Source: Caryophanales bacterium (GTDB lineage Bacteria > Bacillota_I > Bacilli_A > RFN20 > CAG-826). From it: a DNA stretch of 38,258 nucleotides. Both the position numbers and the translations under genes were made by a program. The stretch is taken from assembly GCA_016290145.1 (NCBI GenBank), contig JAEESX010000007.1, forward strand, positions 1 to 38,258. Reading direction: 5' to 3'. Positions 24,232-38,250 of the stretch are shown here, in pieces. The stretch's first letter is position 1; the number at the start of each line of letters is the position of its first letter. The notes below the pieces were generated by a model that made no database searches, was not told the origin of the DNA, and saw only the letters and a program-made list of their open reading frames with translations.

Positions 24232-25437
24232 ATGAGTAAAGTTATTGTTCACATTGACTTGAACGCCTTTTTCGTTCGTTGCGAAGAAATAAAGGATCCA
24301 AGTTTAGAGAATAAAGCTGTCGCTATCGGACATGAAGGACGAGGCGGAATTGTTTCTACGTGTTCATATGAAGCGCGTAAATTTGGTGTTTCTAGTGGAA
24401 TGCCAATGTTCAAAGCTAAACAACTTTGCCCACATCTTATTATTAAACCTGTGGATTTCCGCTTTTATTCGGCCCTCAGCGACCAATTTAAGAAGTTTGT
24501 GAAGCGTTATACCCCCAAGGTGGAAGAGGCCTCGGTAGACGAGTGTTTCGCAGATTTCACGGAAGTTATTAAAAAAGAGAAAGACGCAGTTGGCTTTTTC
24601 AAGAAGCTCCAACAAGACTTATATAAAGAAACAAAATTGAAGTGTTCCATAGGAATCGCACCTACCAAGTTCTTAGCGAAAATGGGTAGCGATTATAAGA
24701 AACCTATGGGTATCACTATTATCAGAAAGAGCGATATTGCGAAGATTTTATATCCACTATCTTTAGATAGTATGTTCGGAATAGGTAAGAAAACCGCCCC
24801 TAGATTAAAAGCCATGGGCATTAAGACCATCGGTGATTTAGCTGCGCTTTGTAATTCTGATGATCCTAAACTCCAAGAAGAACTCGGAAAATTCTTCGTT
24901 GTTATTAAAGATTGGATTAACGGACGCGGTTCAGATGAGGTCTACACTGATGCCTGGAATCCAAAATCTATTGGTAACTCAACAACTTTGATGGAGGATA
25001 CCTCTAATCACGAACTCATCTCCACCACTTTTAGATATTTATCTAAGGAAGTTTCAGAACGGGCCATTAGAGAGAACAAACTAGGTCCGACCATACAAAT
25101 AGTCGTCAAAGAGGCTGAGATGGCTGAGAACGGCTTCAAAAGCCACAATAAATCGATTACATTATCTAATCCAACCAACAATGCTGAGGTTATCTACAAC
25201 ACAGCCATGGATTTATACGACAAATACTTCTCTAAGATGACTGTCCGACTTGTCGGAGTTACTTTGCAGAACTTAATAGATTCAAAAGATATCGCTATTC
25301 AGATGAGTTTATTCGATTATCAACTCCACGAAGAAGAAAGCAGTACAAAGCTTCTCATCAATGAGTTAAATAGAAAACTTAAGAAGAAAGCATTAATGCG
25401 AGCAAGCGAGGTGAAAAAAGATGATGGAAATAATTGA
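24232..25437 (+). CDS. dinB: DNA polymerase IV (Y-family)
   Basis: Error-prone translesion polymerase, 401 residues. Motifs: HIDLNAFFVRCEE (metal Asp and steric-gate aromatic; the usual second Asp is Asn), YEARKFGVSSGMP, the catalytic EEASVDECFADF, SIGIAPTKFLAKMGSDYKKP, a helix-hairpin-helix (FGIGKKTAPRLKAMGI) and the little-finger domain. Near the C-terminus QMSLF (from residue 357) is a good sliding-clamp binding motif. The gene begins directly after a strong promoter with no leader, and overlaps xerD by 17 bases. Confidence 0.95.
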   Translation: MSKVIVHIDLNAFFVRCEEIKDPSLENKAVAIGHEGRGGIVSTCSYEARKFGVSSGMPMFKAKQLCPHLIIKPVDFRFYSALSDQFKKFVKRYTPKVEEASVDECFADFTEVIKKEKDAVGFFKKLQQDLYKETKLKCSIGIAPTKFLAKMGSDYKKPMGITIIRKSDIAKILYPLSLDSMFGIGKKTAPRLKAMGIKTIGDLAALCNSDDPKLQEELGKFFVVIKDWINGRGSDEVYTDAWNPKSIGNSTTLMEDTSNHELISTTFRYLSKEVSERAIRENKLGPTIQIVVKEAEMAENGFKSHNKSITLSNPTNNAEVIYNTAMDLYDKYFSKMTVRLVGVTLQNLIDSKDIAIQMSLFDYQLHEEESSTKLLINELNRKLKKKALMRASEVKKDDGNN

Positions 25438-26305
25438 TGCTGTTGATTTATATCAACAATACCTTTTAGTGGAAAAGGGATTATCTAAACAAACCGTCAT
25501 TTCTTATATTGAAGACTTGAAACAGTTCTTCACCTTTTTACCTGACCGCAAATACGTTGAGGATATGGTTCCTGAAGATCTCAATGAATTTGTGAGAAGA
25601 GAATCCGCTGTTGGTCATTCTGTCTCTACTGCTATGCGTCGACTTTCCTCTATAAGAGGATTCTTCCTTTTCTTAAAGAAAGAAAACTATTATCACGATG
25701 ATATCCCAGAAGTCAAAACGATGAAGAAACAAGAACGACTCCCCAACTGCTTATCTATCGAGGAAGTCGAAGACTTATTAAACGCACCTGATATTAGAAG
25801 ACCTGAAGGTTTACGCGATCGCGCTATGCTCGAAACAGTGTATGCGTCAGGCTTACGTGTGAGCGAGTTATTAGCACTTGAACGTTCTCGTGTGAACTTC
25901 AAAAAAGCTATTATCACTATTTTTGGTAAGGGCGCTAAAGAAAGAAAAGTTCCTTTAGGAGACTTCGCTATCGAATACATCCAAAAATACTGTGATGAAG
26001 TCAGATGTAAGAATCCAGGCAGCGATTCAAAGTATCTATTTTTAAATAGATATGGAGAACCACTCTCTAGGCAATACTTCTTCAAGCAAATTAAAAAGTA
26101 CGCGCTCGAAGCGGGTATACACTCGCCTGTGAGCCCACATACATTACGCCATAGTTTTGCCACTCACCTTCTTGAGAACGGCGCTCAACTACGCGCTGTG
26201 CAAGAGATGCTCGGGCACGCGAATATTGCGACCACGCAAATATATACGCACATAAGCACGAAGAGAATTTTGAGTGCGTATGATTTGTATATGAAACGCA
26301 AATAA
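25421..26305 (+). CDS. xerD: Tyrosine recombinase XerD
   Basis: Site-specific recombinase that, with XerC, resolves chromosome dimers at dif. The 294-residue length is typical. An N-terminal SAM-like DNA-binding domain (YLLVEKGLSKQTVISYIEDL) precedes the catalytic domain with Arg (YASGLRVSELL), Lys (FGKGAKERKVPL), HxxR (HTLRHSFATHLLENGA), His (LGHANI) and the Tyr nucleophile (TQIYTHIS). It could be CodV/XerC, but xerD next to deoB is the B. subtilis ripX-drm order. GAGGTG inside dinB serves as ribosome-binding site. The candidate dif site is 2 kb downstream. Confidence 0.92.
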   Translation: MMEIIDAVDLYQQYLLVEKGLSKQTVISYIEDLKQFFTFLPDRKYVEDMVPEDLNEFVRRESAVGHSVSTAMRRLSSIRGFFLFLKKENYYHDDIPEVKTMKKQERLPNCLSIEEVEDLLNAPDIRRPEGLRDRAMLETVYASGLRVSELLALERSRVNFKKAIITIFGKGAKERKVPLGDFAIEYIQKYCDEVRCKNPGSDSKYLFLNRYGEPLSRQYFFKQIKKYALEAGIHSPVSPHTLRHSFATHLLENGAQLRAVQEMLGHANIATTQIYTHISTKRILSAYDLYMKRK

Positions 26306-26339: not shown

Positions 26340-27560
26340 ATGTCCCATAAATATAAAAGAATATTTGTTATTGTCGCTGACTCAGTGGGTATCGGATATG
26401 AACCAGATGCAGACAAGTTCTTTAATGATGGCCACAATGACGTCGGAAGTAACACAATCGTTCACATTTCCGAGAAAATGCCTAACGGACTAAATATCCC
26501 AACAATGAATGCATGGGGTATTCATGACTTAGACAACAATATTATCGGAACAAGCAAAGTGAACCATCCACATGCCTATGTCGCAAGATCTAGAGAAGCT
26601 AGTAACGGCAAAGACACAATGACAGGTCACTGGGAAATGATGGGTGTTCATACCACTCAACCATTCCAAACATTTACAGATCATGGCTTCCCAAAAGAGT
26701 TAATCGATTTACTCGAAGAGAGAACCGGACACAAATGCATAGGTAACTATGCATCAAGTGGTACCGAAATTCTCGTTAAACTCGGTGAAGAACAAAAGAG
26801 AGACAATTCTCTTATCGTGTACACATCCGCGGATAGCGTGTTACAAATCGCTGCGCACGAAGAAACAACTCCAGTTCCAGAATTATATCGCTGTTGCGAA
26901 ATCGCTCGTGAAATTTGTATGAAACCTGAATGGATGGTGGGCAGAATTATCGCTCGTCCATTCGTAGGCGAGAACGCGCATGACTTCAAGCGTGTTACCG
27001 CACATAGACACGACTTAGCATTAAAACCTCCAGTGAAGACAGTTATGAACGTTATGCAAGATAACGGATTCATGGTCGACTGCGTTGGTAAGATTGGCGA
27101 CATCTTTGATGGTTATGGCGTCGTTAAGACACAAAAGACATCTTCTAATGAAGATGGTATGGACAAGACCATTGAAGAAGCTAAGAACTTCGATTTCACA
27201 GGTATGTGCTTTGTTAACTTAGTCGAATTCGATAGCGAATATGGCCACAGAAGAAATCCAATCGGTTATGGCGAATGTTTAGAAGCTTTCGACAAACGTT
27301 TAGCAGAACTCGAAAAAGTCTTAAAGGATGATGACTTAGTTATCGTTACAGCGGACCACGGAAACGATCCAACTTGGTATGGTACAGATCACACCCGTGA
27401 AAAGATTCCTCTATTAATGTTCTCCAAATCCTTAAAGAACGGCCGCTACTTAGATGAAAGAGTCACATTTGGTGATATCGGTGCGACAATCTTAAAGAAC
27501 TTCGGATTAAAGAAACCTGAAAATCTCTTAGGCGAACCAATCGAAGAATTATTTGAATAA
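26340..27560 (+). CDS. deoB: Phosphopentomutase
   Basis: Interconverts (deoxy)ribose-1-phosphate and -5-phosphate in nucleoside salvage. Alkaline-phosphatase superfamily with two-metal motifs: FVIVADSVGIGYEPDA at the N-terminus, GKDTMTGHWEMMG around the phosphorylated Thr, and TADHGNDPT...TDHTREKIP near the C-terminus. 406 residues, normal. It follows xerD by 34 bases behind AGGAG and ends in a strong terminator, so it closes the dinB-xerD-deoB unit. No nucleoside phosphorylase gene follows, unlike Bacillus. Confidence 0.96.
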   Translation: MSHKYKRIFVIVADSVGIGYEPDADKFFNDGHNDVGSNTIVHISEKMPNGLNIPTMNAWGIHDLDNNIIGTSKVNHPHAYVARSREASNGKDTMTGHWEMMGVHTTQPFQTFTDHGFPKELIDLLEERTGHKCIGNYASSGTEILVKLGEEQKRDNSLIVYTSADSVLQIAAHEETTPVPELYRCCEIAREICMKPEWMVGRIIARPFVGENAHDFKRVTAHRHDLALKPPVKTVMNVMQDNGFMVDCVGKIGDIFDGYGVVKTQKTSSNEDGMDKTIEEAKNFDFTGMCFVNLVEFDSEYGHRRNPIGYGECLEAFDKRLAELEKVLKDDDLVIVTADHGNDPTWYGTDHTREKIPLLMFSKSLKNGRYLDERVTFGDIGATILKNFGLKKPENLLGEPIEELFE

Positions 27561-27657: not shown

Positions 27658-28224
27658 ATGGAAAAATTTAAAACCGAGAAAAACATCTTTGCGGATTATG
27701 GAAGCAAAGTCGCTCTCAGACAAAATGGTATGAGAGAACAATTAGACTGGATTAGGCGCCAACTGGAATACTTTTCTTTCTCCGAGAAGTATTTGCTTAG
27801 GTACGATCTCAAACAAGGCGAGATTTACGAGTTTGACTGGGGTCTCAATGTGAACGCTGAATTCTCGAACCGACATTATGGCGTGGTCATGGTCGACTCA
27901 GACTCAAGAAATCCGTTAGTCACAATCTGCCCACTCAAAACTAATCATGGATCAATGTGTCCCAAGAGCGATGTTGACCTTGGAGTCATCGAATGTTTGA
28001 ACACAAATAAGTCGACATTGGCAGTCGTGAACCAAGTCAGAACAATTGATAAGTTGAGACTCTACACAAGAAGCATCATCGGATCTAAAACTGACATGTT
28101 AGCAGACTCATATTCGGAAGATGAATATACAATTATGAGGTTAGAAAAGAATAAGTTTGAGACGGTTCAGAAAGCTTATTTTGACTATCTAAATGGAAAA
28201 CTCGGTGACATACGAGAGCGGTGA
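27658..28224 (+). CDS. PemK/MazF-like protein with N-terminal extension, no adjacent antitoxin
   Basis: Residues from about 50 on resemble the PemK/MazF ribonuclease fold: KQGEIYEFDWG...HYGVVMVDSDSRNPLVTICPLKT, then VVNQVRTIDKLRL, close to the MazF pattern IxTIDKxRL. The first 50 residues form a charged helical extension (MREQLDWIRRQLEYF) absent from ordinary MazF. The expected MazF Arg/Thr active-site layout is only partly evident. No antitoxin-sized gene precedes it: a terminator ends 55 bases upstream and the gap is too short. It has a strong AGGAGGG site. It is the last plus-strand gene before the terminus-like switch. Toxin activity is inferred, not shown. Confidence 0.75.
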   Translation: MEKFKTEKNIFADYGSKVALRQNGMREQLDWIRRQLEYFSFSEKYLLRYDLKQGEIYEFDWGLNVNAEFSNRHYGVVMVDSDSRNPLVTICPLKTNHGSMCPKSDVDLGVIECLNTNKSTLAVVNQVRTIDKLRLYTRSIIGSKTDMLADSYSEDEYTIMRLEKNKFETVQKAYFDYLNGKLGDIRER

Positions 28225-28324: not shown

Positions 28325-28417
28325 AAAAACCGCTAAAAACCTTATTGTAGATATTTCTATTAATGTTTTGGTTAACATAATGACTATTATGCGAAGTTTA
28401 TATATTTTAGCGTTTTT
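28325..28417. repeat. Inverted repeat flanking the dif site
   Basis: AAAAAC-CGCTAAAA (28325-28338) and TTTTAGCG-TTTTT (28405-28417) pair over 13 bases with one bulged C. The 66 bases between hold the dif site. On the plus strand it could also act as a long-loop terminator for the PemK-like gene. Confidence 0.45.
28370..28397 (-). other. dif: Chromosomal dif site (XerC/XerD recombination site)
   Basis: Read on the minus strand: XerC arm ACTTCGCATAA, 6-bp centre TAGTCA, XerD arm TTATGTTAACC. The XerD arm matches the Firmicute consensus TTATGTWAACT at 10 of 11. The XerC arm matches B. subtilis ACTTCCTAGAA at 8 of 11 and shares CGCATAA with the E. coli arm. Overall 20 of 28 positions equal B. 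subtilis dif (recalled from memory), with half of the differences in or next to the variable centre. It lies in the only gap where all genes on both sides converge, as expected at a terminus, and xerD is 2 kb away. Confidence 0.85.
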
Positions 28418-28429
28418 GCGATGGAAGTG

Positions 28430-28461
28430 GCAAAAAGAAAAGAGAGCCTGATTCGCTCTCT
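28430..28461 (-). terminator. Rho-independent terminator after nadD-yqeK
   Basis: On the minus strand AGAGAGC, 7-base loop, GCTCTCT, then TTTCTTTTTG. It ends the yqeG-yqeH-yhbY-nadD/yqeK unit. Confidence 0.88.
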
Positions 28462-28481: not shown

Positions 28482-29567
28482 TTAATCTAAATATTGTTTG
28501 AAACATTTATAGGTTAATCGATTATTTATGTCTTTTTCCTTGCTTAAGAGGAAATCTTTATTAGCTTGGAGGACTGTTTTGAAGCCTTGTTCAGCATTAT
28601 CTTTCATAGCTTTGATCAAGTCACTGGAGTCAAAACCTCTTGTTGGTTCAATCTTGTCTGCGGCGTAAATTATCTTAGCGAGCAAACACATATTTTCGTT
28701 TCCTGTTGAATGGAATTCGATGGCCTCAATGATGTCTGGGTCCTTAATTCCGAACATTTCTTGGACTAAATGAGCGCCAGCAAACTGATGATAAGCAAAC
28801 TTTGGGATGTCCGCATACTCTGGATAATACTTTTTAGTGAGTTCGTACTGTTTGCTCTCGGCTATATCCTTGCCAATATCATGGAAAAGACCAGCGACAA
28901 ACGCTTTTAAAGGATTATCTAAGTTATTTGCTTTGGCGATTTCGTAAGCTGTCTTAGCGACGCTCTTAGAATGGGCAAGACGATGAGCGGATAAAATATA
29001 GTTTAGGTCCACCATTCCTTTGTATAAATCATGTTCTACTATGTAGAAGAGTACTTCATCAGGTAGTTCGAAGGACTTTAATTCCCTGATTTCGGTGCTT
29101 GAAACCTCAATTCCACTACCCTCAATCTTCTGCATATGGAACTTTTCAATGTTCTCACTTTTGAGTTCATAACCAGGTCTTGTATAAAATACAAGTTGTG
29201 CTAATTCAGATATCTTTTCAGCTTCTTTCCATCTGTGGAACTCATTAACTTGATCCACGCCAATAAGATAAAAGAGCTTATCGTTAGGATATTTCTCTTT
29301 GAAGTATTTGACTGTATCGATGGAATAATTGATATCTTTTCCACTATTAAGTTCAAATTCATCTATGGAAAGATTCTTTTTACCTTCGATGGCAATTCTT
29401 AACATATTCATTTTGTCTTCAATGGGCGCCGAAACTTCTTTCCATACTGAAATACGTGCTGGAACGAAGATTACTTCTCCATCAAGTTCTTTTGCGGCTT
29501 TTAACGCCATATTTATATGCCCGTTATGAACGGGATCGAATGCACCACCGAAAAATATTCTGTTCAT
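28482..29567 (-). CDS. nadD: Fused nicotinate-nucleotide adenylyltransferase and YqeK-type HD hydrolase
   Basis: One 361-residue chain holds two enzymes. Residues 1 to about 185 are NadD, which adenylylates nicotinate mononucleotide: GGAFDPVHNGH (7-17), LIGVDQVNEFHRW, and SSTEIREL (156-163). Residues from about 190 are an HD domain like YqeK, which hydrolyses diadenosine tetraphosphate: AHRLAHSKSV, FHDIGKD (H229/D230), HQFAGAHLV, EFHSTGN and YAADKIEPTRGF. In B. subtilis these are adjacent genes nadD and yqeK. Here no stop lies between them. The ATG is right after the yhbY stop with no clear Shine-Dalgarno. rsfS, which usually follows, is absent. Confidence 0.93.
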   Translation of the reverse strand: MNRIFFGGAFDPVHNGHINMALKAAKELDGEVIFVPARISVWKEVSAPIEDKMNMLRIAIEGKKNLSIDEFELNSGKDINYSIDTVKYFKEKYPNDKLFYLIGVDQVNEFHRWKEAEKISELAQLVFYTRPGYELKSENIEKFHMQKIEGSGIEVSSTEIRELKSFELPDEVLFYIVEHDLYKGMVDLNYILSAHRLAHSKSVAKTAYEIAKANNLDNPLKAFVAGLFHDIGKDIAESKQYELTKKYYPEYADIPKFAYHQFAGAHLVQEMFGIKDPDIIEAIEFHSTGNENMCLLAKIIYAADKIEPTRGFDSSDLIKAMKDNAEQGFKTVLQANKDFLLSKEKDINNRLTYKCFKQYLD

Positions 29568-31639: not shown

Positions 31640-32455
31640 CTAAACTGTGAAATTTCGCCAAATGTTCATTGTATAAGTAGCAGCATCTACTTGATCCACA
31701 ACAAATGTGAATGTTACGAAAGAACGCACATAATCCATAGTAACGTCACACTCACCACATACCCTTGGATAGCGAAAACGGAAATATGCGTTTGTACCTT
31801 CGATGTAATAGCTCATATATTTGTAACTAGACATTTTATTCTTTCCGCTAAAAATAGTCACAAAAACTACAGCATTGTGTTCGAAGAAACTATCGGAATA
31901 AGTAACAAAACCATTATTTCTAGAGAAACCTTCATTTGCAACTTGTTCCATAGAGGTAACAACAAAAATGGTCGTTTCATCTTGCTCCATGCGCTTGGGT
32001 GTATCATTGATTGGCGTATAGCTGTGACAATATGCGAATTGCGTTGTGTATTCTACAATAGCGTGTGTAATGGTTGTAACCGTTTCGTCTGCGTATTTAA
32101 CTACAAGTGAAGCGTTTTCAGAAACAGCTTTTGGAGTGATCACAAAGAAGAAATTATGCCTTTGACTATTACGGCTAGACTCAAATAGTTCACTTACTTT
32201 CAACACATCATCGCTATATTCAAAGGAAAATAAATCTTGATAACCCCAAGAACGGTTGTCGATATCAATTTTTAAAAGATAATCGTTTCCGAGTATATAT
32301 GAGTCAACGGCAATTTCATCAGCTAGGTTTCCTTCATGGGTAACGAAGCGATAAGAAAACTCTGGAGCAGTTTCTGGAAGGACTCTCTCCTGTTTGTTTG
32401 GGCAAGCAGATAATGCAAGCGCCAATACTGGTAAAAGAAGATATTTAAATTTCAT
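31640..32455 (-). CDS. Putative lipoprotein, paralogue 1 of a tandem pair
   Basis: The 271-residue protein has a lipoprotein signal: MKFKYLLL, a hydrophobic core and lipobox LSAC with Cys18. After that it appears to be a beta-rich extracytoplasmic domain with no recognised family. It shares with the gene at 32646 the patterns GNxYxxxIxxxN, FSFxY, FxFVI, DSFFE, YKYxxYYIE, YFR and a W-x-N end, at low overall identity (my estimate is about a quarter). There are extra Cys late in the chain (CGEC). The promoter is a TATAAT 8 bases before the ATG, formed where a yqeG remnant decays, so the transcript may be leaderless. Confidence 0.8.
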   Translation of the reverse strand: MKFKYLLLPVLALALSACPNKQERVLPETAPEFSYRFVTHEGNLADEIAVDSYILGNDYLLKIDIDNRSWGYQDLFSFEYSDDVLKVSELFESSRNSQRHNFFFVITPKAVSENASLVVKYADETVTTITHAIVEYTTQFAYCHSYTPINDTPKRMEQDETTIFVVTSMEQVANEGFSRNNGFVTYSDSFFEHNAVVFVTIFSGKNKMSSYKYMSYYIEGTNAYFRFRYPRVCGECDVTMDYVRSFVTFTFVVDQVDAATYTMNIWRNFTV

Positions 32456-32645: not shown

Positions 32646-33491
32646 TTATAAATTCTTTATGCGAGCGTTAAACCAAAGATCAAAGTTGGTTGTCTCGCCA
32701 TCAGCTTTGTCAATCACTAATGCTATAGCGGTACTACCTTGAAACCATGGTTTTCTAACTGGTTTAAACATTACATCGTATGGGATTCCCTCGCGATAAT
32801 GTGTAATGCGGAAATAGACAATACCATTTTCAATGTAGTAGTTCTCGTATTTATAATTTGCGATTGATTCGCGTAAGAGAATGTATACAAGACTGCTCGT
32901 TTCAAAGAAACTATCGTCTATATTATATGCAAGCGAACTGGATACCCATGTTGGATATTGGTCCATTTCTTCCTTAGAAGATATTACAGTTGCTTTATCC
33001 ATAAGATGTTCTGTTGTCTCGTTGTAATATACTTCTGTTATATTGTCATAACGGCAATAATTTAATCTTTCGCTAAAAGATCTTATTGGGTAGTCAATTT
33101 CATTAATTGTTTGTTTCAAATGATTAACAACAATTTTATTGTTATCAGATTCCTTTTTGACATCGATAACAAACAAGAAGCTCATATCCTTTCGTGCCCC
33201 TTGCTTGTAATAGTATGGCGTTATGTCATACGCCTCTTCATCATATGTAAAAGAAAAATCATCAAAATAAGCAAAGCTTTCATCGTTATTTTTAACGTAG
33301 ATACAAAATGTATACGTGTTGCCAACGATAAAATATTCAATGTCGATACTTTCGTAACCAGACAATGTTGAACCTTCTCTAAAATAATTGAATGAAAACG
33401 TTGGTGATACTTTTGGATATGGTCTCTTATTGCATGCACAAAGGGATGCTGCAATCAATAAAGTTCCGATGAATGCTAAACTTTTCTTCAT
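32646..33491 (-). CDS. Putative lipoprotein, paralogue 2 of a tandem pair
   Basis: The 281-residue protein has signal MKKSLAFIGTLLIAAS and lipobox LCAC (Cys20), then an aromatic- and Asn-rich extracytoplasmic domain without a recognised family. It is a distant paralogue of the gene at 31640: PxFSFNYF, GNTYTFCIYVKNN, FSFTYDEE, FLFVID, NYCRY, DDSFFE, NYKYENYYIE and a DLWFN end. The start has TATAAT 8 bases upstream, plus GAGGG in between that may serve as ribosome-binding site. It lies after the parC terminator and is followed by the duplicated spacer. Confidence 0.8.
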   Translation of the reverse strand: MKKSLAFIGTLLIAASLCACNKRPYPKVSPTFSFNYFREGSTLSGYESIDIEYFIVGNTYTFCIYVKNNDESFAYFDDFSFTYDEEAYDITPYYYKQGARKDMSFLFVIDVKKESDNNKIVVNHLKQTINEIDYPIRSFSERLNYCRYDNITEVYYNETTEHLMDKATVISSKEEMDQYPTWVSSSLAYNIDDSFFETSSLVYILLRESIANYKYENYYIENGIVYFRITHYREGIPYDVMFKPVRKPWFQGSTAIALVIDKADGETTNFDLWFNARIKNL

Positions 33492-33625: not shown

Positions 33626-36301
33626 TTATTCATCATCATCGACATCGAAGATTGATATTTGTTCAAAGGACTTATCGTCTTTCTTTTCTTTTGCTTTTTG
33701 TGGTTCTGCGACTGGCGTTTCTTGGCTTTCTTCCACCACATTTTCTTCTTCCAATAAGCTTTCTACTGGTTCATCAGATGTCTCGACTGAGATTTCTGGT
33801 TTGACCTTTTCAATTATTGGGAAAGAGATTGTATTTTTGTCGATTCTATCAATGTTTGTGTCAAAGACACACTTCACTGTAGTTCTTGCTGGAAGACCAC
33901 AATTGGCTTTTGCGTATTTGGCTTCTGTCAATCTGAAGTCATCCACCGCTAACTTGAAGATGCTGTTATCGCTGAGATAAAGATTTAATTTCATTAAATC
34001 TAAATCCTTGTCGACCTTAACTGCAGCAATGATCTTATGGATATCACTCTTGAATGATGGGCAGATTTCTTGTGGTTTACCTAGGCGTTGTGTACGCGTA
34101 ATCCTATTAATATCTATCACGCGCTCATGACCTTTATCGGTAACTAAGATTACTTTGGCCTTTTCGTCTTCATGGGCAGCGATTAATGCTGCGGCTTGGT
34201 TTTTACCTAAGCCAGAGATAGATTTCACGCCACCGGCCTTAGGACCGAGGATTGTTAAGTCGTTCTCATTGAACAAACTTCCCATACCATTACTTGTTAA
34301 AACAAGTAAGTTGCTATTTCCTGTTAAGACTTGAATACCAACGACTTCATCACCATTGAGAAGCTTCATACATCTCGCTGGACGAGAACGTTTGAATGTT
34401 TCGATTCCTGAAACAGGCATACGTTTAATTTGCCCGAAACGAGTTAAAAACGCTAAATAAACGTCATTTCTAAGTTGATGCAAAGCGATTGCTTTGATAA
34501 TCTTTTCGCCTGGTGCAAATGAGACAAATGTGTTCAAGTGAACGCCTTCATCTTTGAAACGATTTTCAGTGAGTTTGTGCACTGGAATGCATGCATAGTT
34601 ACCTAAGTTTGTAAAACAAACTAGGTAATCGGTTGTTAATGCTTGGCCAACTGCCACGATTGCATCGCCATCTTTTAAGCCTGGATCTGCATCGTCACCT
34701 GAACCTTTATAGGACTTGATTGAACAACGTTTTGCATAGCCATCACGTGTAACAACAACGATGGTTTCTTCCTCTGCGATAAGCTGGCGCTTATCAATTG
34801 GTTTATCGTCTTCTTTTTGTTCAATTTGTGTCTTTCTATCATCACCGTATTTGGCGGAAATTTGTTTTAAGTCTTTGATTAAAACACGGTTTAATTTCGC
34901 TGGATCATTGAGAATTTCGGTGAGATTTTCGATATCTTTAACGAGTTGTTTTCTCTCGTTTTCGAGAATAACTTCATCAGTATGACTCAACTTGTATAAT
35001 GGCATTGTAACGATAGCTTCCGCTTGTTCGTTTGAGAAGCCAAAATGCTTCATTAAGTTAACTTTACTATCGGCTTTATCTTTACTCTTTCTGATGATTT
35101 CCACGACTTCATTAATGCAAAGCGAAGCTTTGATTAATCCTTCAACAATGTGGAGTCTTGCAGAATACTTTTCTAAGTCGAATTTGCTTTGTCTTGTAAC
35201 GACATCAACTTGGTGTTCAATGTAGGCATCAATATAGTCCAAAAGTGTTAATGTTCTTGGTCTACCATTGACGATGGCCACCATGTTTGCGGAGTATGAT
35301 GTCACTAAAGGCGTTTTTGCCTTTAAGTATTTGAGTAAGAGGTCGACTTTTGCATCTTTCTTACAGTCGATTGCGATTCTAATACCTTTATAGTCAGATT
35401 CATCTCTTACTTCGATAAGACCACTGACACTCTTTGCGTGGATAATTTTGTCTATTTCATAGACAAGGTCTTTTTTCACCACTTTATAAGGTATTTCTGT
35501 GATGATAATTTGTTGATTATCTTTATTCTGAACGATTTCTGCTTTTGAGCCAATTTCAATCTTTCCACGACCTGTTAAATATATATTTTTGAGGCCTTCG
35601 GATTCGTAAATAATACCACCACCTGGGAAGTCTGGACCTTTAATGAATTCCAATAAGTCTTCTGTGGTTGCGGTCTTGTGACCAATACGATAAATAGTCG
35701 CATCAATAACTTCTCTAAGGTTATGAGGTGGGATTTCAGTTGCTAAAGCAACTGCGATACCTTCTGTACCATTAACTAACAAGTTAGGGAATCTAGATGG
35801 TAAAACGATTGGTTCATATTCGGTATCGTCGAAGTTAAGTTGCATATCAACTGTCTTCTTTTCGATATCACGAATGAGTTCGTTAGATAATTCGCTCAAT
35901 CTGGATTCTGTATAACGGTAAGCGGCTGGAGAGTCGCCATCAATAGAACCATTATTACCCTGAAAGTCGATTAATGGGTATCTAACTTTCCAGTCTTGGC
36001 TCATTCTTGCGAGAGCTTCATAGATGGATGTATCACCATGTGGGTGGAATGTACCCATAACCGCACCAACGGTATGAGCGCACTTCTTTGTTGGTTTGTT
36101 AAAAGTGTTACCACTTTTATACATTGAGAAGATGATTCTTCTTTGAACTGGTTTTAAACCGTCCCTCACATCTGGAATAGCACGGTCTTGAATAACGTAT
36201 TTAGCATAGGTGGCATATCTATCACCCATGACATCTTCAAGAGGTTCAACTGAAATCTTTTCGATGATCTCTTCAATGACTTCTTCTTTTTTCTTTGCCA
36301 T
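33626..36301 (-). CDS. parC: DNA topoisomerase IV subunit A
   Basis: DNA-breaking subunit of topoisomerase IV, which unlinks daughter chromosomes. It has the winged-helix region with RRIIFSMY and HPHGDTSIYEALARM, and catalytic Tyr130 in AYRYTESRLSEL, then the tower and coiled-coil, and a C-terminal beta-pinwheel (FGQIKRMPVSGIETFKRSRP). At 891 residues it is longer than B. subtilis ParC; the extra length is an acidic tail ending FDVDDDE. A Thr sits at the quinolone-contact position that is often Ser. ParC rather than GyrA is favoured by its parE neighbour and the lack of a clear GyrA box. AAGGAGGTC precedes the ATG. Confidence 0.94.
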   Translation of the reverse strand: MAKKKEEVIEEIIEKISVEPLEDVMGDRYATYAKYVIQDRAIPDVRDGLKPVQRRIIFSMYKSGNTFNKPTKKCAHTVGAVMGTFHPHGDTSIYEALARMSQDWKVRYPLIDFQGNNGSIDGDSPAAYRYTESRLSELSNELIRDIEKKTVDMQLNFDDTEYEPIVLPSRFPNLLVNGTEGIAVALATEIPPHNLREVIDATIYRIGHKTATTEDLLEFIKGPDFPGGGIIYESEGLKNIYLTGRGKIEIGSKAEIVQNKDNQQIIITEIPYKVVKKDLVYEIDKIIHAKSVSGLIEVRDESDYKGIRIAIDCKKDAKVDLLLKYLKAKTPLVTSYSANMVAIVNGRPRTLTLLDYIDAYIEHQVDVVTRQSKFDLEKYSARLHIVEGLIKASLCINEVVEIIRKSKDKADSKVNLMKHFGFSNEQAEAIVTMPLYKLSHTDEVILENERKQLVKDIENLTEILNDPAKLNRVLIKDLKQISAKYGDDRKTQIEQKEDDKPIDKRQLIAEEETIVVVTRDGYAKRCSIKSYKGSGDDADPGLKDGDAIVAVGQALTTDYLVCFTNLGNYACIPVHKLTENRFKDEGVHLNTFVSFAPGEKIIKAIALHQLRNDVYLAFLTRFGQIKRMPVSGIETFKRSRPARCMKLLNGDEVVGIQVLTGNSNLLVLTSNGMGSLFNENDLTILGPKAGGVKSISGLGKNQAAALIAAHEDEKAKVILVTDKGHERVIDINRITRTQRLGKPQEICPSFKSDIHKIIAAVKVDKDLDLMKLNLYLSDNSIFKLAVDDFRLTEAKYAKANCGLPARTTVKCVFDTNIDRIDKNTISFPIIEKVKPEISVETSDEPVESLLEEENVVEESQETPVAEPQKAKEKKDDKSFEQISIFDVDDDE

Positions 36302-36303
36302 CG

Positions 36304-38250
36304 TTATTTGACCTCCTTCATAAATGTATCAACTTCATTGAAGTTGACATTCTCTTCAACCCATTTCTTTCTGCTGCCTGTATCTTTGCCCATAAGGACA
36401 CTAACACGGGAGTCAGCGAGAAGAGGATCTTCAATATCAACACGGATTAAAAGTCTGGTTTTTGGATCCATTGTGGTTTCTTTTAATTGGAGAGCATCCA
36501 TTTCACCAAGACCTTTATATCTGGAAACTTTATATCCAGCACCGATTTTCTTCTTAGCTTTTTCTAATCCTTCATCATCCCAAGCATACTCTTGATGCAT
36601 CTTTTTGTTCTCTTCTTTATATATTCTATATAAAGGAGGTACAGCAATATAGACGTGTCCAGAGGTGATTAAAGGACGCATATAGTGATAGAAGAATGTG
36701 AGCAATAATGTTTGAATGTGAGCACCATCGGTATCAGCATCGGTCATAATGATGATTTTGCCATAATGGATGTCATCAATATCAAATGATTGACCAAAAC
36801 CCGCACCAATTGTGTTAATAATGGTCGCAATTTCTTCATTCTTTAAGACTGTGGTAACTGGTAATCCATCAGTATTTAATGGTTTACCACGTAGTGGTAA
36901 GATTGCTTGATGTAATCTATCTCTACCTTTCTTAGCACTGCCACCAGCGGAATCACCCTCAACGATAAATAATTCGTTTCTAGAGTAATCTTTGCTTTGT
37001 GCAGGTGTTAATTTGTCGGAAAGAATGATCTCTGTTTTGGCTTTTTTAGCACTTCTTGCTTCATCTTTTGCTTTTCTAGCGGCTAATCTAGCAGCTTGGC
37101 TATCTAAACACTTCTTGATGAGCAAGGAAGCAATCTCTCTATTCTCAGTTAAATAATAAGTAAACTTATTATAGATAAAGTTTTGCACAATGTAGGTTGC
37201 TTCAGCAGTACCTAATTTACCCTTAGTTTGACCCTCAAATTCGAGGAGTTTTTCAGGAACTTTAAGGGAAATAATCGCGGTGATACCTTCTCTGATGTCA
37301 TTACCATCGAGCTTTTTACCATGCAAAATGTTGTAGTTTTCACCGAAGTCATTAACCGCTCTTGTGATGCCTGCTTTGAAGCCAACTTCATGGGTTCCAC
37401 CCTCTTTTGTTCTTACGTTATTTACGTAAGACAAGATGGTTTCGTTGTAGTCTTCATTGCAGTATTGAAGAGCGATTTCTGTACTGATTCCAGTGGCTTC
37501 ATCAACGTCGCTAAAGTCGGCAATTGGAGTCATTGGATTCTTGTTGGCATTGATACTTGCAACGTATTCGACAAGGCCGTTTTCATAGAAGAATTCTTCA
37601 CTCTCACCAGTTCTTTCATCCACTAAAACGAACTTCACGCCCTTCATCAAGAAAGCACTTTCTCTAAGGTGTCCAGCAATGATTTCACGTTTAAATTCGA
37701 CTGTGGAGAAGATGGTTGGATCAGGTTGGAATCTGACAAATGTACCATGCTTTTTGGTATTGCCTAACTTCTCTAATGGTTGAACAATATGTCCACCATT
37801 TTCGAACTTCATATGGTAAATACTACCGTCTTTATAGACGGTAACATCTAAATACACACTTAAAGCGTTGGTTACAGAAGCACCAACACCATGTAATCCG
37901 GCAGCTGATTTATATACGGCACTATTAAATTTTCCACCAGCATGTAATTCAGTAAAGACGAGCTCAACTGCTGGTCTTCCTGTTTCCTTGTTGATGCCAC
38001 ATGGAATACCACGACCTTCATCCAAAACTGAGCAAGAACCATCCTTATGAATGGTGATTGTAATTTTGTCTCCGAATCCTGATAATGCTTCATCGACTGC
38101 ATTGTCGACGATTTCCCAGACTAAATGATGTAGACCGGTTCCGTTTGTTGAACCGATATACATGGCTGGTCTTTTTCTGACACCTTCAAGTCCTTGCAAA
38201 ACATGAATGTCGTCAGCTGTATATGTGGTTTTAATATTATTACTTGCCAT
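36304..38250 (-). CDS. parE: DNA topoisomerase IV subunit B
   Basis: ATPase subunit of topoisomerase IV, 648 residues. GHKL ATPase motifs are EIVDNAVDEA, DEGRGIP and GLHGVGASVTNALS. The transducer domain follows, then TOPRIM with EGDSAGGSA and TDADTDGAHI, and a C-terminal YKGLGEMDALQLKETTMDP segment. Features such as LEKLGNTKKHGTFVRFQPDPTIF match ParE better than GyrB. The parC ATG lies two bases after its stop, so the subunits are co-made. The start is 8 bases from the window edge, so its promoter and ribosome-binding site cannot be judged. Confidence 0.95.
   Translation of the reverse strand: MASNNIKTTYTADDIHVLQGLEGVRKRPAMYIGSTNGTGLHHLVWEIVDNAVDEALSGFGDKITITIHKDGSCSVLDEGRGIPCGINKETGRPAVELVFTELHAGGKFNSAVYKSAAGLHGVGASVTNALSVYLDVTVYKDGSIYHMKFENGGHIVQPLEKLGNTKKHGTFVRFQPDPTIFSTVEFKREIIAGHLRESAFLMKGVKFVLVDERTGESEEFFYENGLVEYVASINANKNPMTPIADFSDVDEATGISTEIALQYCNEDYNETILSYVNNVRTKEGGTHEVGFKAGITRAVNDFGENYNILHGKKLDGNDIREGITAIISLKVPEKLLEFEGQTKGKLGTAEATYIVQNFIYNKFTYYLTENREIASLLIKKCLDSQAARLAARKAKDEARSAKKAKTEIILSDKLTPAQSKDYSRNELFIVEGDSAGGSAKKGRDRLHQAILPLRGKPLNTDGLPVTTVLKNEEIATIINTIGAGFGQSFDIDDIHYGKIIIMTDADTDGAHIQTLLLTFFYHYMRPLITSGHVYIAVPPLYRIYKEENKKMHQEYAWDDEGLEKAKKKIGAGYKVSRYKGLGEMDALQLKETTMDPKTRLLIRVDIEDPLLADSRVSVLMGKDTGSRKKWVEENVNFNEVDTFMKEVK

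Follow-up and report, generated by a model that had tools for sequence, protein, structure and literature searches.

A very probable chromosomal dif site next to xerD at the replication terminus of an uncultured lineage of Bacilli

A 28-bp element in a Caryophanales genome fragment is very probably (a probability of about 0.97) the dif site of the chromosome, an element of a familiar kind from a new lineage. It lies on contig JAEESX010000007.1 of the metagenome-assembled genome (MAG) GCA_016290145.1, where the whole stretch of 38,258 bp that was analysed is referred to as the window. Public relatives of this organism are MAGs of uncultured bacteria from rumen and gut, which carry the labels Bacilli, Bacillales or Erysipelotrichaceae, and with the element the terminus of this lineage and its site of dimer resolution can both be placed. 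The preliminary description of the window, made from its sequence, had named the element as a candidate chromosomal dif site, and this identification is supported by its form, its single copy, its conservation and, in relatives, its position at a skew switch opposite dnaA. The features on which the analysis draws are the following:

25421-26305, plus strand: xerD (TIGR02225, E=1e-96), alignable along its length with XerD of E. coli (1a0p)
26340-27560, plus strand: deoB, phosphopentomutase (NF003766, E=2e-155)
27658-28224, plus strand: PemK/MazF-like ORF (PF02452, E=1e-5), between deoB and dif
28370-28397, minus strand: very probable dif site, 28 bp, 11-6-11, assigned from its sequence, single copy, conservation and matrix score
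28370-28380, minus strand: putative XerD half-site TTATGTTAACC, kept in the family
28381-28386, minus strand: 6-bp central region TAGTCA, which differs between genomes
28387-28397, minus strand: putative XerC half-site ACTTCGCATAA, assigned to XerC by homology and kept in the family while the centre varies
28441-28461, minus strand: terminator-like hairpin with a T-run for nadD-yqeK (consensus scan), between nadD-yqeK and dif
28482-29567, minus strand: nadD-yqeK fusion (NF005519 and TIGR00488), the gene immediately beyond dif as seen from xerD
33626-36301, minus strand: parC, topoisomerase IV subunit A (TIGR01061, E=2e-245; synteny)
36304-38250, minus strand: parE, topoisomerase IV subunit B (TIGR01058, E=1e-267)

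Read on the plus strand, the element is GGTTAACATAATGACTATTATGCGAAGT; on the minus strand it reads ACTTCGCATAA/TAGTCA/TTATGTTAACC, that is, two inverted 11-bp arms around a 6-bp centre, which matches the 11-6-11 layout of XerCD sites proposed for this strand in the preliminary description. Alignment with the reference dif sites of B. subtilis (ACTTCCTAGAATATATATTATGTAAACT) and E. coli (GGTGCGCATAATGTATATTATGTTAAAT) (PMC3025954) reproduces both likenesses claimed for the XerC arm, with 8 of 11 bases shared with B. subtilis and the motif CGCATAA in common with E. coli. The XerD arm agrees with each of these two sites at 9 of 11 positions and with TTATGTTAACT, the commonest sequence in the class, at 10 of 11, the same figure that had been given for a Firmicute consensus. 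The site is located in a non-coding gap of 257 bp, bounded by the stop codons of the ORFs at 27658-28224 (plus) and 28482-29567 (minus), and all major ORFs in the window run on the plus strand to its left and on the minus strand to its right. The end of xerD at 26305 is 2.06 kb away; gap, strand switch and the 2-kb distance to xerD are all as originally described.

An imperfect palindrome flanked by convergent genes could also be a transcription terminator, or some other palindrome that resembles dif by chance. Such a reading is highly unlikely, since the hairpin that appears to serve nadD-yqeK is a separate element and the resemblance to dif is far above what random sequence yields. With a weight matrix built from the arms alone of 56 dif-like sites, all from other families, the element scores 33.9 bits compared with 8.4 bits for the second-best place in the window, and the best places in random 850-kb sequences reach 11-21 bits with the same matrix. 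The class consensus derived from other families, allowing up to three mismatches, matches one place in the window, the dif site itself, and none in 100 shuffles of the window. At the same threshold there is a single dif place in this organism's assembly (850 kb, 75% complete), and in two relatives, G006 and G213, dif is the top-scoring place of the matrix by at least 12 bits. The copy number, which the preliminary description had singled out as informative, is therefore one in an assembly of this size and completeness, and other genomes of the family nearly always have a single copy each.

The same arms recur among related genomes, with which the preliminary description had proposed to compare the 28-mer. 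Combined with any centre, they have exactly one occurrence per genome in all six genus genomes, and they are present in 170 of 224 family genomes, where a reversed-pattern control is near zero; this, too, argues against a chance resemblance. Several family members without a match to the pattern were recovered by a looser one. The centre, by contrast, varies even within the genus (TAGTCA, TTTCTA, TTTCCA, TATCCA and TTGCTA), and conserved arms around a free centre are the expected behaviour of a XerCD site. The family consensus, ACTTCGCATAA N6 TTATGTTAACY, can serve to anchor and orient fragmented MAGs. Centres in the family often contain G and C (e.g. TGTCCA and TTGCCA), and those in other families of the class are mostly TATATA or TGTATA. 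Elsewhere in the class, none of the many sampled genomes (0.7-1.6 Mb) of families f7 and f18 has a dif match, and the dif system of these families has possibly been lost or has strongly diverged. G233:C1 carries two opposed dif-like sites 25 bp apart, at 1181635-1181661 (plus) and 1181687-1181713 (minus), which could reflect an element inserted at dif.

The position of the site relative to the replication terminus can be gauged from nucleotide skew, which was computed genome-wide in relatives and only locally in this organism, whose MAG is fragmented and 75% complete. Within the window the turning points of the GC, AT and purine skews fall at 29007, 28339 and 28446, respectively. Two members of other genera of the same family allow an analysis of whole contigs. 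In G213, assembled as one contig of 1,061,998 bases, the cumulative GC skew peaks at 719187, 33 bp from dif (719220-719247), and its minimum at 204329 falls inside dnaA (204067-204549), so that dif and the skew minimum at dnaA are separated by 48.5% of the contig. In the 879-kb contig of G006 the peak at 184333 is about 100 bp from dif (184434-184461), and 0.6 kb separates the minimum from a DnaA domain match. The peaks in the genus members G001, G005 and G003 are approximately 170, 200 and 600 bp from dif. The GC-skew check that had been put forward in the preliminary description hence comes out in favour of dif, with peaks at 33 bp (G213) to about 600 bp (G003) in relatives and a local turn in the window; nor did the scans of G006, G213 and further contigs turn up a better 28-mer, the adverse outcome it had envisaged at the skew switch.

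Skew outside ORFs of at least 150 amino acids also changes sign between the replichores (+0.07/-0.08 in G213 and +0.11/-0.17 in G006), and the skew switch is thus not only a matter of gene orientation. Skew at third codon positions is dominated by coding-strand bias, and its replication part becomes visible only once gene strand is allowed for or outside long ORFs. A search for KOPS/SRS-like motifs by means of leading-strand oligomer skew returned GAAGAAG and related words, which are skewed as many coding words are, and GGGNAGGG, sought as an orienting motif, was not enriched in the genus (1 vs 5); no such motif is proposed here.

As the skew switch in relatives is within tens to hundreds of bases of the element, a role in fork arrest was also considered, namely that of a Ter site that sets the terminus and takes no part in recombination. 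Fork traps normally consist of several oriented sites, whereas this element is present in a single copy, has the 11-6-11 form of dif and is matched by Xer recombinases in the same organism, which makes a Ter site very improbable.

The genes around the site bear on its origin. Xer-using mobile elements exist, and the PemK/MazF-like gene that adjoins dif could be taken as a sign that the 28-mer belongs to an inserted element (an IMEX or a pdif-type module) and is not the chromosome's own site. However, the element is present once, in a position that is syntenic in the genus, the family and the sister family f2, its conserved neighbours have no integrase or element between them, and in relatives it closely coincides with the switch in skew. 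G001, G003 and G039 have kept the PemK-like gene as well, and a mobile origin is accordingly given very little credence here. This toxin-like gene, for which no obvious antitoxin partner was identified, seems to be a resident of the terminus; it is also kept in L061, and the G041 and G071 loci contain no match to it. On the other side of dif, the position of nadD-yqeK is syntenic across the genus, the family and f2. Between the HAD gene and parC, two minus-strand ORFs (31643-32455 and 32649-33491) have no Pfam or NCBIfam match, and tblastn against the syntenic loci of relatives, G001 and G003 among them, gave no hit; both ORFs seem to be genome-specific. Scans of the window returned no Rfam family and no tRNA gene.

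Both recombinases that a chromosomal dif site would call for are encoded in this organism. XerD has all its catalytic residues (R146, K170, H240, R243, H266 and Y275). A second recombinase on contig C12 has XerC as its best match, adjoins topA and likewise carries the catalytic residues R, K, H, R, H and Y. The gamma domain of FtsK was found in five of the six genus genomes and gave no match in this 75% complete MAG. A third tyrosine recombinase of this genome, on contig C8 (G000:C8, L050 1423-2328, minus strand), is a weaker match that is nearest to XerA-like and integrase families and is no clear XerC or XerD. By homology with known systems, XerC would bind ACTTCGCATAA and XerD TTATGTTAACC; the septum would bring together the two dif copies of a chromosome dimer, and recombination within the 6-bp centre would resolve the dimer into two monomers, probably under the control of an FtsK/SpoIIIE translocase. 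The setting of this reaction would be the junction of the two replichores, in the gap that separates the converging genes, with xerD adjacent and parC-parE not far away.

The proximity of xerD and dif is not peculiar to this genome; it is conserved through the family and extends to a large part of the class. Positions of both are available for 128 family genomes; in the 108 that have them on one contig, dif is invariably downstream of xerD, at 147-7173 bp and in the same relative orientation, with the XerD arm facing xerD, while in the other 20 the two are on separate contigs of fragmented assemblies. Among the loci compared for synteny, which are those in which its adjacency was checked, deoB adjoins xerD in most linked relatives. 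On the side of dif opposite to xerD, parE is found 5.5-8.1 kb away in all 24 family genomes tested. The order xerD-deoB-dif-nadD/yqeK-yhbY-yqeH-HAD is shared by six of six loci of the sister family f2, and in five of these six parC-parE comes next within the 20 kb examined. Across 16 other families of the class (52 genomes), where the Xer match closest to the XerD of the window was counted as xerD, so that a small number may encode different Xer proteins, xerD is within 13 kb of dif and in the same orientation in 33 genomes, is 25-236 kb away in 11 and is on another contig in eight. Families with a close xerD are f6, f8, f10, f11, f12, f13, f16, f21 and f23. In f14, f15, f20 and f24 xerD is 51-236 kb from dif, and the linkage has thus apparently been lost; the distances in f15 cluster at 51-64 kb with a changed orientation, as after an inversion.

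This distribution makes the xerD-dif linkage look ancestral in the class and lost in some families. Tentatively, the two-recombinase dif system might form a terminus cluster of fixed orientation (xerD, usually deoB, and dif, with parC-parE in the family and its sister family) whose linkage dates back to an ancestor and is maintained by selection, a possible benefit being that late replication, or XerD and topoisomerase IV supplied locally at the terminus, would aid the final separation of chromosomes; we regard this broader proposal as possible but rather doubtful. The layout departs from what has been described for classical systems, in which the two recombinase genes are scattered (Carnoy and Roten, PMC2731167) and xerC is in most cases close to dif, with xerD close to the origin (Kono et al., PMC3025954), and it raises the question of whether the separation of chromosomes depends on genes being located at the terminus. 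A literature search of partial coverage yielded no direct description of a conserved xerD-dif-parCE linkage in two-recombinase Bacillota, and the arrangement seems to have been little noted so far.

In comparison with known systems, the site most resembles those of the two-recombinase type. With dif of B. subtilis and its recombinases CodV (XerC) and RipX (XerD) it has in common the 28-bp length, the 11-6-11 form, 17 of 22 arm bases, the use of two recombinases and a single site at the terminus, whereas the centre is TATATA in B. subtilis and TAGTCA here. Nor is dif of B. subtilis known to lie within such a 2-kb distance of xerD. The likeness to E. coli dif and XerC/XerD is of the same extent (28 bp, 11-6-11 and 17 of 22 arm bases, with CGCATAA and TTATGTTAA in common), but the outer bases of both arms differ, as does the linkage to xerD. 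A recombinase gene linked to dif at the terminus is known from XerS/difSL of streptococci and lactococci (PMC2731167) and from XerH/difH of Campylobacter and Helicobacter (PMC5357621), and in this one respect, a recombinase gene near its dif site, these systems are like the present one. They rely, however, on one recombinase and a 31-bp or otherwise atypical site, in contrast with the classical 28-bp site and the separate XerC beside topA found here. A linked single-recombinase module was considered for the 28-mer and is ruled out by precisely these two features, the two recombinases and the classical 28-bp site.
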